Source: Prevotella sp. (GTDB lineage Bacteria; Bacteroidota; Bacteroidia; Bacteroidales; Bacteroidaceae). Taken from it: DNA of 64,000 nt. Where the stretch lies: the NCBI GenBank assembly GCA_017618275.1, contig JAFZUS010000028.1, positions 1 to 64,000 on the forward strand, written 5' to 3'. The position numbers were made by a program, and so were the translations under genes. Under the pieces are notes generated by a model, which ran no database searches, was not told the DNA's origin, and saw only the letters and a program-made list of their open reading frames with translations. This document shows positions 54,125 through 56,247 of the stretch, one piece after another (position 1 is the first letter of the stretch; each line of letters opens with the position of its first letter).

Positions 54125-54190
54125 TTGTTGCTATTTTAATAAGTCGCTTGCCAGACCAACTGGGGCTCTTACCCTAAATAGGTTCCATTC
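54125..54190 (-). ncRNA. Candidate structured RNA A, divergent from dinD
   Basis: On the minus strand, downstream of a canonical promoter, lies a three-tier hairpin: outer stem TAAATAG (54175-54181) with CTATTTTA (54131-54138), middle TAAG/CTTA (54140-54143, 54068-equivalent 54168-54171) and GC/GC (54146-54147, 54165-54166), inner CCAG/CTGG (54151-54154, 54160-54163) with a 5-nt loop. The 56-bp core is identical to RNA B. No clear terminator is seen. Confidence 0.6.
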
Positions 54191-54196
54191 ATGCAG

Positions 54197-54227
54197 CAAA
54201 GATATACTCTTTTTCTGATATCTGCAA
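54197..54227 (-). promoter_or_regulatory. Minus-strand promoter of structured RNA A
   Basis: TTG at 54227-54225 and TATCTTTG at 54204-54197 with exactly 20 nt between. It fires away from dinD. Confidence 0.65.
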
Positions 54228-54243
54228 GTATTTCCTTTTTTTC

Positions 54244-54274
54244 TTGCTCATTTCCCAAATTTGTAATAAATTTG
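54244..54274 (+). promoter_or_regulatory. dinD promoter with operator-like spacer
   Basis: TTG at 54244-54246, 20-nt spacer, TAAATTTG at 54267-54274. The spacer holds CATTTCCCAAAT (54249-54260), an ATTT-CCC-AAAT inverted repeat found at the same offset in the promoter at 55384. A repressor site is likely. Confidence 0.65.
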
Positions 54275-54298
54275 CAAGCAAAATCAAACAATAGTAAT

Positions 54299-55171
54299 AT
54301 GGATATCCAAAAGATACAACACTATAAAACAGCCTTCGATCTAATTGTAAAAGAAATCAAGGATGAAGAAGGCAACAGCATTGAAGTATGGTATGCCCGT
54401 GAACTTCAACCACAATTGGGCTATGCCCGTTGGGAAAACTTTGTGGTGGCTATTGGTCGTGCGATGGAATCGTGTAAGACACTGGGAATCAACATTGATG
54501 ATCATTTTCGTGAGGTCACGAAAATGATAGCCTTGGCTAAGGGTGCTCAACGTGATATTCAGGATTTTATGCTCACCCGCTATGCCTGCTATCTGATAGC
54601 CCAGAATGGTGACCCAAAGAAGGAGGAGATTGCTTTTGCGCAGAGTTATTTCGCTGTGCAGACCCGCAAAGCCGAACTTATAGAAAAGCGACTCAATGAG
54701 ATTGCCCGTCTTGATACCCGTGAGCGTCTTCGTGCATCAGAAAAACAACTAAGTCGCAATATCTTCCAACGTGGAGTTGATGACAAAGGATTTGGGCGCA
54801 TCCGCTCTAAAGGTGATCAAGCCTTGTTTGGAGGTCTAACCACAGAGCAAATGAAACTGCGCCTAGGAATTAAGAGCGGTGCCTTGGCTGACCGTTTGCC
54901 AACGTTGACTATTGCTGCTAAGAATCTTGCTACAGAAATGACCAACTATAATGTTGAGCAGAAAGACCTTCACGGTGAAATGAGCATTACGGCAGAACAT
55001 GTTCAAAACAACCGCAGCGTCCGTGGCATGTTGGGACAGCGTGGCATCAAACCTGAAGAACTACCCCCTGCTGAAGACATCAAGAAGGTGGAGCGTCGTG
55101 TAGCCAAAGACGAGAAGGATATGTTGAAAGAAAACAAGAAACTCCCGAAAGGAAGGAAATGTGATGTATAA
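54299..55171 (+). CDS. dinD: DinD-like DNA-damage-inducible protein D
   Basis: A 290-aa protein with the DinD layout: N-terminal WYARELQPQLGYARWENFVVAI segment (residues about 28-49, the BRO/DinD-like part), a GAQRDIQDFMLTRYACYLIAQNGDP motif, YFAVQTRKAELIEKR, and the C-terminal LFGGLTTEQMKLRLGIKSG and LTIAAKNLATEMTNYNV stretches. E. coli DinD is SOS-induced and inhibits RecA-driven strand exchange; homologues often lie in defence or mobile regions. ATG 54299 is chosen because promoter boxes occupy the upstream part of the longer frame. The gene sits between hairpin-RNA modules and shares an operator-like site with the nuclease gene downstream, so the two are probably co-regulated, perhaps by DNA damage (inference). 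Confidence 0.88.
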   Translation: MDIQKIQHYKTAFDLIVKEIKDEEGNSIEVWYARELQPQLGYARWENFVVAIGRAMESCKTLGINIDDHFREVTKMIALAKGAQRDIQDFMLTRYACYLIAQNGDPKKEEIAFAQSYFAVQTRKAELIEKRLNEIARLDTRERLRASEKQLSRNIFQRGVDDKGFGRIRSKGDQALFGGLTTEQMKLRLGIKSGALADRLPTLTIAAKNLATEMTNYNVEQKDLHGEMSITAEHVQNNRSVRGMLGQRGIKPEELPPAEDIKKVERRVAKDEKDMLKENKKLPKGRKCDV

Positions 55172-55195
55172 TATGCTTAATATAATGGAGTTGCA

Positions 55196-55329
55196 TGGGT
55201 ACTCCGTTTTAACAGGTCGTTTGCCAGAGCAACTGGGACTCCTGTCCTAAACGGAGTTTAAAAGTGCTTCTATTTTAATAAGTCGCTTGCCAGACCAACT
55301 GGGGCTCTTACCCTAAATAGGTTCCTTTC
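55196..55329 (-). ncRNA. Candidate structured RNAs B and C in tandem
   Basis: Together with the minus-strand promoter at 55336-55366, this covers most of the 302-nt gap after dinD. Hairpin B (55325-55270) is identical over 56 bp to RNA A. Hairpin C (55257-55201) keeps the core loops (GTCG, TTGCCAGA, CAACTGGG) but has new stems: ACTCCGTTT/AAACGGAGT, ACAGG/CCTGT and GT/AC in place of CTATTTTA/TAAATAG, TAAG/CTTA and GC/GC. Paired changes on both sides of three stems argue for selection on structure. One transcript could run through both and end antisense to the dinD 3' end. Confidence 0.62.
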
Positions 55330-55335
55330 ACGCTG

Positions 55336-55366
55336 CAAAGATAGGTGTTTTTCACTTAACTTCCAA
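55336..55366 (-). promoter_or_regulatory. Minus-strand promoter of structured RNAs B/C
   Basis: TTTGG (TTG at 55366-55364) and CCTATCTTTG (-7 box 55343-55336) with a 20-nt spacer, matching the promoters of RNA A and of the Abi-linked hairpin. Confidence 0.65.
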
Positions 55367-55383
55367 ATCTTTTAGGCAAAAAC

Positions 55384-55414
55384 TTGTTCATTTCCCAAAT
55401 TCTTTGTATTTTTG
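55384..55414 (+). promoter_or_regulatory. Promoter of the putative nuclease gene with operator-like spacer
   Basis: TTG at 55384-55386, 20-nt spacer containing CATTTCCCAAAT (55389-55400), TATTTTTG at 55407-55414. Identical layout to the dinD promoter. In the 60-nt leader, ATCTGC-TTT-GCAGAT forms a short hairpin (from about 55438). Confidence 0.65.
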
Positions 55415-55473
55415 CACCTACATCTATTATAGATGAAATCTGCTTTGCAGATATTAAAAGCATATTAAAGAAT

Positions 55474-55989
55474 ATGATTAACTTTCAGTTTTTCCCAAGA
55501 TCGCATGGTGTAACACCTGAGATTCAAGCGGTCATAGATTGCTTTAAGAAGATAGAAATAACACTTGAAGATGGTACACATCGTGTTTCAAACGATGTCC
55601 TTGCTCTTTTGCGCCCACACCTTGAGGCCTGTGGTTATAGCGTTGAAAAGGGGAAAGGCCGAGATGAAAAAATAGATGTTCCCGTACTTTTTGGAGAGAA
55701 CAACGCTATTGACAAATCGTTTTATGCAGATGCTTTTAATAGGGAACATAATATTGTCATCGAAGTTGAGGCTGGACGCGCTGTTAGAAACAATCAGTTC
55801 CTCAAGGATATTTTCCAAGCCTGCATGATGTTTGACGTGGAATATCTTGTTGTTGCAGTATTAAATGAATATTCTGGCGGAGGAGTTGTTAGCAAAGATT
55901 ACCAAGAAGTAAAGACCTTTCTTGAGACTCTGTATATCTCAAATCGTCTTAAACTTCCGTTAAAAGGAATTTTACTAATCGGATACTAA
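55474..55989 (+). CDS. Putative PD-(D/E)XK nuclease (restriction-endonuclease-like)
   Basis: A 171-aa soluble protein. After an N-terminal helical part (TPEIQAVIDCFKKIEI), it has GYSVEKGKGRDEKIDVPVLFGE and NIVIEVEAGRAVRNNQFLKDIFQACMM. An acidic residue on one strand (D in KIDVPV) followed by E-x-E on the next (IEVEAG) is the pattern of BglII-like and other PD-(D/E)XK nucleases, and the following YLVVAVLNEYSGG resembles the strand that closes that fold. The Lys of the motif is not plain, so activity is uncertain. Transcribed from a promoter almost identical in layout to that of dinD and followed after 3 nt by a small gene of unknown type. No methyltransferase is present, so it is not an ordinary restriction-modification enzyme. 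Confidence 0.6.
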   Translation: MINFQFFPRSHGVTPEIQAVIDCFKKIEITLEDGTHRVSNDVLALLRPHLEACGYSVEKGKGRDEKIDVPVLFGENNAIDKSFYADAFNREHNIVIEVEAGRAVRNNQFLKDIFQACMMFDVEYLVVAVLNEYSGGGVVSKDYQEVKTFLETLYISNRLKLPLKGILLIGY

Positions 55990-55992
55990 AAT

Positions 55993-56247
55993 ATGAGGTG
56001 GAACTATACCATAATAAGATGCCAAACAACAGACAAATTCAAAATAATGGATTTATTGTGCGATGCCGAGGAATACAAACTCATTAGAGATCATGTCGAT
56101 GTTGTTTATTACTATGGTGATACCCCACGTGAAAAGAAAGAAACACAACAGTTGATAGAGAGAAACATAAAAATACTTATTGTGAACAATATACGGTCTG
56201 AAAGTCACCCAGAATTTATTGATGATTGGTTTTTTATATTAAAATAA
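55993..56247 (+). CDS. Unknown 84-aa protein downstream of the nuclease gene
   Basis: Starts 3 nt after the putative nuclease, so translation is almost certainly coupled. The 84 residues are charged and hydrophilic with alternating strands and helices (WNYTIIRCQT, VDVVYYYGDTPREKKE, IKILIVNNIRSESHPEFIDDW). No signal peptide or membrane helix. No family is recognised. The short size and coupling would suit an inhibitor or specificity partner of the nuclease, but nothing in the sequence shows it. An intrinsic terminator follows, closing the operon. Confidence 0.65.
   Translation: MRWNYTIIRCQTTDKFKIMDLLCDAEEYKLIRDHVDVVYYYGDTPREKKETQQLIERNIKILIVNNIRSESHPEFIDDWFFILK

Follow-up and report, generated by a model that had tools for sequence, protein, structure and literature searches.

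Between positions 54,125 and 55,414 of a Prevotella sp. contig (JAFZUS010000028.1, assembly GCA_017618275.1), whose first 64,000 nucleotides we analyzed and refer to as the window, a module made of an RNA-like hairpin and two back-to-back promoters is present twice, once upstream of dinD and once upstream of a gene encoding a putative nuclease. An earlier reading of the sequence (the original prediction) took these hairpins for a structured RNA family linked to DNA-damage or defense genes. Our analysis indicates that they belong to a real and apparently undescribed RNA family of Prevotella, which has one dominant protein partner. This partner, here named X, is a gene for a protein of ~145-151 amino acids that lies tail to tail with the RNA gene.

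The hairpin module of the window

The three hairpins A, B, and C are direct repeats of one another on the minus strand (Table 1), and were found where the original prediction had placed them, together with the run of 56 bp that is identical between A and B. Hairpins A and C agree at 48/79 positions, and the stem changes that had been named for C are indeed compensating. Reading of the bases also bore out the proposed minus-strand promoters and the divergent gene promoters beside them, the gaps between the back-to-back TTG boxes being 16 and 17 bp in the two copies of the module. The TTG and -7-type boxes correspond to the promoter consensus of Bacteroidetes.

Hairpin C of the window has no U-tract (1 T in the next 8 nt), while hairpin A has neither a U-tract nor a C partner and is apparently a truncated relic. 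The folding energy of hairpin C is 3.9 standard deviations below that of shuffled sequences, whereas A and B alone fold no better than shuffles (z = 0.36 and -0.14); the evidence for structure therefore comes from covariation and not from energy. The core of the hairpin has three exact matches in its own genome, all inside the window; at two mismatches this genome holds 11 further matches, as many as with a reversed-pattern control (11), and at up to three mismatches the core was found in 0/150 other sampled members of the family.

A covarying RNA family of Prevotella

A covariance model (R1) was made from nine hairpin sequences, in which 10 of the 18 pairs show two-sided changes. R1 matched 41/398 genomes of the genus and 6/399 genomes of the family, with the window's own genome included in both samples; two of the six family genomes gave weak matches in other genera (E = 0.0155 and 0.0318). 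Of these two, the match in genome G120 proved real, and the one in G649 was dropped because by eye it looks coding. In addition, a scan of species genomes with the core returned six stretches, five of which belong to Prevotella or Prevotellaceae metagenome-assembled genomes (two titled rumen, two RUG isolates, and one without a source), and all five carry the C-B pair in the same order, 66-67 bp apart. The sixth, from an actinobacterium, looks like a chance match.

The RNA loci, 54 in all, come from the window, from two loci known before, and from 50 that were fetched; together they provided 93 hairpins (74 distinct). Two-sided changes occur at 15 of the 18 pairs of the stored structure and in 190 cells, compared with a mean of 59 after shuffling and at most 32 when the structure is slid, in an alignment that was fitted to the model and hence leans toward its structure; the innermost pair fails in 42/74 rows. 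A separate MAFFT alignment of whole RNAs, which took in 30 of the 36 distinct ones, gave 28 pairs, 15 of them with two-sided changes and spread over both hairpins. Thus, the covariance-model search with listing of neighboring genes that had been proposed revealed preserved pairing, and not homologues scattered without it.

The RNA gene of Prevotella consists of a promoter, hairpin B, a short linker, hairpin C, and a U-tract, about 140-150 nt in all, and two hairpins of one fold are present in 39/54 RNA loci. An upstream TTG-19/20 nt-TAnnTTTG was identified in 36/52 loci (two loci cut by contig ends were left out), compared with 1.1% in a control set of 10,200 random positions that takes in coding DNA as well; the other 16/52 loci lack it. 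Most loci have 4-7 T in the 8 nt past hairpin C, which is the terminator hairpin in these relatives. Four loci (L108, L116, L130, and L131) carry single hairpins in which the 5' half looks like that of B and the 3' half like that of C, so that they resemble fusions left by a recombination event that removed the sequence in between.

Compared with Rfam at the gathering score, the window yielded only a tRNA, and 10 related loci (E up to 5) yielded three chance-level matches, none of them over the RNA; the family defined here is thus a structured RNA unmatched by Rfam. The literature matches listed describe neither the RNA nor an X-RNA pair, a statement that does not extend to the 3161 mostly unnamed candidates of PMC8040213. 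The A region had no match in 50,697 phage records and the C-B region none in 72,556 plasmid records, and five viral contigs from a first pattern scan were judged by eye to be chance matches.

Gene X is the dominant neighbor of the RNA

X or a piece of it is present at the RNA 3' end in 35/54 RNA loci (tblastn with one X as query, E = 1e-3), including 31/39 of the two-hairpin RNAs and 4/15 of the single hairpins, where X is broken. RNA and X lie on opposite strands and tail to tail at 35/35 of these loci, and for intact X genes the 3' ends of hairpin and X match fall within about 20 nt of each other, most within 10. In the 398 genus genomes, this RNA (type 1, as distinct from the type 2 described below) is present in 41 and X in 42, and 29 have both, compared with 4.3 expected (Fisher p = 1.3e-24).

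Near-full-length X genes, defined as rows covering at least 130 of 149 positions (an in-frame-stopped copy in G346 was left out), have an RNA in 32/33 cases, 25 of type 1 and 7 of type 2; among the 25, the copies in G183 and on contig 47 of G374 each have one altered end. The one X without an RNA, in G156, is disrupted at its 3' end, and a contig edge lies 139 bp away from there. Conversely, 24/49 type-1 RNA loci of the genus sample have no near-full-length X. In a sample of the order, X was found in 1/159 genomes, namely as a fragment in the window's own genome, and it had no match in the phage (50,697) or plasmid (72,556) records.

For 24 of 30 open X frames (L113, copies of L024/L026, and the altered L118, L120, and L122 were left out of the alignment), a Pfam search at E up to 1 returned 13 families, with no Abi_2 among them. 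Residues H97, R108, R119, and K128 (alignment numbering) are invariant. The first was LPD3 (PF18798), matched by 23 of the 24 proteins with a best E of 8.3e-6; its bit scores, where shown, were 17.7, 17.3, and 20.8 against a Pfam curated cut-off of 27. When the modeled X fold was compared with BFVD, the three best matches were to proteins that carry polyvalent or LPD3 in their names (E = 6.1e-5 to 1.6e-4, probability 1.00), with TM-scores of just 0.53-0.56 and root-mean-square deviations of 5.6-8.9. X is therefore predicted to have an LPD3 fold, with a modest TM-score. Among PDB structures, where a ToxN-like endoribonuclease fold was looked at, it had no strong match, and it weakly resembles RNases of the RelE/HigB type.

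In 11/34 X-RNA units, the flank on the X side and the flank on the RNA side are direct repeats of each other. They are 28-148 bp long and 78-96% identical, and at the same repeat score the controls gave 15/680 (random gaps in the same loci) and 8/1122 (mismatched flanks). The repeats are rarely common to different loci, and in 5/8 of the strongest units the left copy ends at most 4 nt from the end of the -7 box of the X promoter. This arrangement resembles an insertion with duplication of the promoter region; 23/34 units have no such repeats. At the type-1 loci with repeats, R1 found no further hairpin beyond X. In eight units (L092, L100, L104, L109, L118, L124, L182, and L187), five of which have a left copy that ends at the -7 box, long imperfect repeats are situated close to the X promoter and to that of the gene that follows.

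A second RNA type, phage copies, and other neighbors

The type-2 RNA was discovered because X genes without a type-1 RNA were inspected. It has the same type of promoter, followed by CCGCUGAA-AUGAAAGAGUAGCACCGUAAUCGGGUUAGCAAAUCA-UUCAGCGG and a U-run, with X tail to tail. By inspection, types 1 and 2 have a common core (GAG, GC, CCG-loop-CGG, GC), and both X subfamily 2 and phage X are accompanied by a diverged RNA with this core. Two IMG/VR viral contigs carry one and the same X (42% identical) near genes that look terminase-like by eye, and the hairpin recurs at the 3' end of this X; a third viral contig has a 90-amino-acid piece of X with that hairpin. Downstream of X in the phage copies L191 and L192, the RNA may begin about 150 nt earlier, at TTACCTTTGC, with a different 5' part. 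One type-2 copy, which has both its promoter and its U-run, is also present in the window's own genome (G000 contig 210, 71269-71544, L181), next to an X fragment that covers residues 2-62.

The 12 type-2 matches in 200 genus genomes comprise six by X or an X fragment, two by what appear by eye to be X remnants, and four by other genes. RNAs with related terminal hairpins are located upstream, on the same strand, of a gene for a 281-303-amino-acid protein (in G120, G471, and G269) and of RhuM/Doc-like genes (in G265). The 5' parts of these RNAs are longer, judged by eye. The family may thus extend beyond the RNAs that are partnered with X. The 281-303-amino-acid protein carries a TIVYVFGPEQC...WVKIG motif. 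It looks GIY-YIG-like, which Pfam did not confirm (one protein had no match, and another matched RAMA below the threshold), and two homologues 38% identical to it had no RNA by either model. In G471 an RNA follows RhuM (ORF6N-like) and Doc genes (L190 2654-2712), while in G265 one precedes them (L213 1501-1562); the two RNAs of G471 have a common upstream element, TCTCACGTAGATG.

X is absent from the window

In genome G470, the neighboring genes are collinear with those of the window (85-91% identical in three main blocks) and the C-B pair is 99% identical. Between the ComEA-like gene and C-B, the window carries a C1 peptidase gene, hairpin A, and dinD; G470 has X at this place, directly before C-B. 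The window itself contains no X. The stretch before the nuclease-like gene (55384-55425, 42 bp) is 93% identical, and that before dinD (54209-54261, 53 bp) 83% identical, to the region upstream of the G470 X. The simplest reading of these sequences is that the twice-seen module derives from X-RNA units and that dinD and the nuclease-like gene now probably stand behind promoters of the X type.

These results divide the original proposal. The structured RNA family, with its preserved pairing and its own promoter, stands, and a role as an antitoxin-like partner is plausible. A fixed link to dinD does not, since either model found the RNA at 0/19 loci of dinD homologues, some of them cut by contig ends, and a fixed link to defense genes as such is not supported; the fixed neighbor is X, on the other side, which the window has lost. 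The nuclease-like gene was likewise rejected as a fixed partner, being in no fetched locus from another genome; its 171-amino-acid protein, putatively of the PD-(D/E)XK kind in the original prediction, had no Pfam match, and its peptide pattern was found in no viral contig and on no plasmid.

Table 1. Features of the window and, in the last row, of related loci in locus coordinates; the R1 scores of hairpins A, B, and C hold by construction, as R1 was built partly from them.
Feature	Position	Strand	Remarks
Left copy of repeated module (hairpin + divergent promoters)	54126..54276	+	repeat search
Hairpin A	54127..54186	-	single B-type hairpin; R1 cmsearch 79.7 bits
Promoter of RNA A	54197..54227	-	TTG-20-TATCTTTG
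dinD promoter	54244..54274	+	TTG-20-TAAATTTG; TTG 54244-54246, TAAATTTG 54267-54274
dinD (DNA damage-inducible protein D, Bro-N)	54299..55171	+	NCBIfam NF008573 2e-103; Pfam Bro-N
Hairpin C	55200..55259	-	R1 cmsearch 81.8 bits
Right copy of repeated module	55265..55416	+	repeat search
Hairpin B	55266..55325	-	R1 cmsearch 82.8 bits
Promoter of RNA B-C	55336..55366	-	TTG-20-TATCTTTG
Promoter of nuclease-like gene	55384..55414	+	TTG 55384-55386, TATTTTTG 55407-55414
171-amino-acid protein, putative nuclease of the original prediction	55474..55989	+	no family matched
RNA with type-2-like terminal hairpin + 281-303-amino-acid protein	L188 2058-3096, L190 4476-5669, L214 1501-2724

Comparison with known RNA-protein pairs

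Among known systems, one close likeness is to AbiF-RCd22 of Clostridioides difficile, in which the RNA RCd22 is described, in the passages available from PMC12373285, as binding and neutralizing the AbiF toxin. As in the X-RNA pair, a short non-coding RNA (Rfam abiF motif, RF03085) with promoter, terminator, and two copies of a hairpin adjoins a phage-borne protein (PMC12373285). However, RF03085 was unmatched in the window (gathering score) and in 10 related loci (E up to 5), X is not an Abi_2 protein, and RCd22 is, in those same passages, upstream of and co-transcribed with abiF, whereas the RNA here meets X in convergent orientation, tail to tail.

Type III toxin-antitoxin systems (ToxIN, CptIN, and TenpIN) likewise have an RNA of repeated units with a terminator beside a protein, which in the case of X may be an RNase, and the two hairpins in 39/54 loci agree with the repeated units. 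In these systems, a single operon contains first the RNA, then a terminator, and then the toxin gene (PMC5086642, in the part consulted), whereas RNA and X are convergent at 35/35 X loci; moreover, X is LPD3-like, and type III RNAs are usually pseudoknotted, while the RNA here was modeled with nested pairs only. Our best reading, by analogy, is that the X-RNA pair may work like AbiF-RCd22 or type III systems in a different arrangement, while being a member neither of the AbiF-RCd22 family nor of type III as defined.

LPD3, a domain of phage polyvalent proteins, resembles X in sequence and fold matches; X differs in that it is small, stands alone as a protein, and has an RNA partner. The passages of PMC5512222 at hand state no function for LPD3, and the pair offers a concrete RNA partner for LPD3-like domains of phages. 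Lastly, in the part of PMC5848175 that we draw on, the type I toxin-antitoxin pair yonT/SR6 has an opposite-strand RNA that overlaps the 3' end of the protein gene, but here the RNA is structured and covarying and the protein has ~150 amino acids, compared with 58.

A proposed toxin held by its RNA and the competing explanations

We favor, with about even confidence for and against, a model in which X is an RNase-like toxin neutralized by a two-motif RNA. A small-RNA gene on the minus strand would comprise promoter, B, linker, and C, the latter doubling as terminator, which would overlap or abut the 3' end of the tail-to-tail X gene; the two copies of the conserved-loop hairpin in each RNA would bind and mask X, in the manner of RCd22 with AbiF. 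In the window, X would have been lost, with dinD coming to lie before C-B and the nuclease-like gene after B behind an X-like promoter, leaving the RNAs as orphans or relics. X is rarely without the RNA and the RNA often without X, a pattern that a toxin and its antidote would show. Two points weigh against this model: the asymmetry could also stem from easier decay of the longer gene, and related RNAs precede the 281-303-amino-acid protein (G120, G471, and G269) and RhuM/Doc-like genes (G265).

The latter observation speaks for a regulatory RNA that is independent, either mobile or of phage origin, and recruits varied effectors, X being its commonest passenger, as do dinD and the nuclease-like gene behind X-like promoter regions in the window. 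We regard this explanation as rather unlikely, given that X is present at 31/39 two-hairpin RNAs and an RNA at 32/33 near-full-length X genes, and that the relatives without X are few and lower-scoring. Comparably doubtful is a cis-antisense or convergent regulator of X mRNA, which would act through 3' overlap, by pairing or polymerase collision, and without protein binding. The closeness of the RNA and X 3' ends (within about 20 nt, mostly within 10) fits it; complementarity alone, however, leaves two copies of the same fold, conserved unpaired loops, and covarying stems unexplained, and the same core is kept beside phage X at 42% identity.

Far less probable is that the hairpins act as DNA, as folded recombination sites or ends of mobile elements comparable to attC or REP. 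Loops kept while stems vary would suit such sites, as would the direct repeats around 11/34 units (controls, 15/680 and 8/1122), but a DNA site needs neither the near-constant promoter distance and spacing, maintained despite differing upstream sequence, nor the U-tract after C, and since no further hairpin lies beyond X, the repeats there are not hairpin copies. The least credible explanation, already disfavored, is plain duplication of an intergenic promoter-terminator region with functionless hairpins: the module is doubled before two unrelated genes in the window and C there has no U-tract, but the covariation across the family and the linkage to X argue against it.

A broader and speculative extension, to which we give a small chance, is that unrelated effectors share a single RNA fold, which each can use interchangeably as its antitoxin or control module, X lying tail to tail and the GIY-YIG-looking (unconfirmed) protein and RhuM/Doc-type genes head to tail. 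The unit would insert near transcription starts and duplicate promoters, leaving the new effector and the old gene each with one, and the window would be a slot-swapped descendant in which dinD and the nuclease gene inherited X promoters and RNAs.

The X-RNA pair is small, has its RNA and protein genes in an unusual tail-to-tail layout, and could be tested with little cloning work. Should X be an RNase that its RNA restrains, as the toxin model proposes, both the protein fold and the gene order would be new for RNA antitoxins, in Prevotella as well as in phages.

Genes on the promoter side

A constant divergent gene on the promoter side of the RNA was rejected, as 22 of 48 loci have a divergent gene and 26 a gene on the same strand (of 54 entries, the window's own two and another four for which no gene is listed were set aside, and open reading frames were picked by length). 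By eye, some of these genes are toxin-antitoxin or restriction genes, such as MntA/HepT in L024 and helicase and type IIG-like genes in L025 and L028, and others are housekeeping genes. In the window, an 84-amino-acid open reading frame that matched no family (55993-56247) directly follows the nuclease-like gene.
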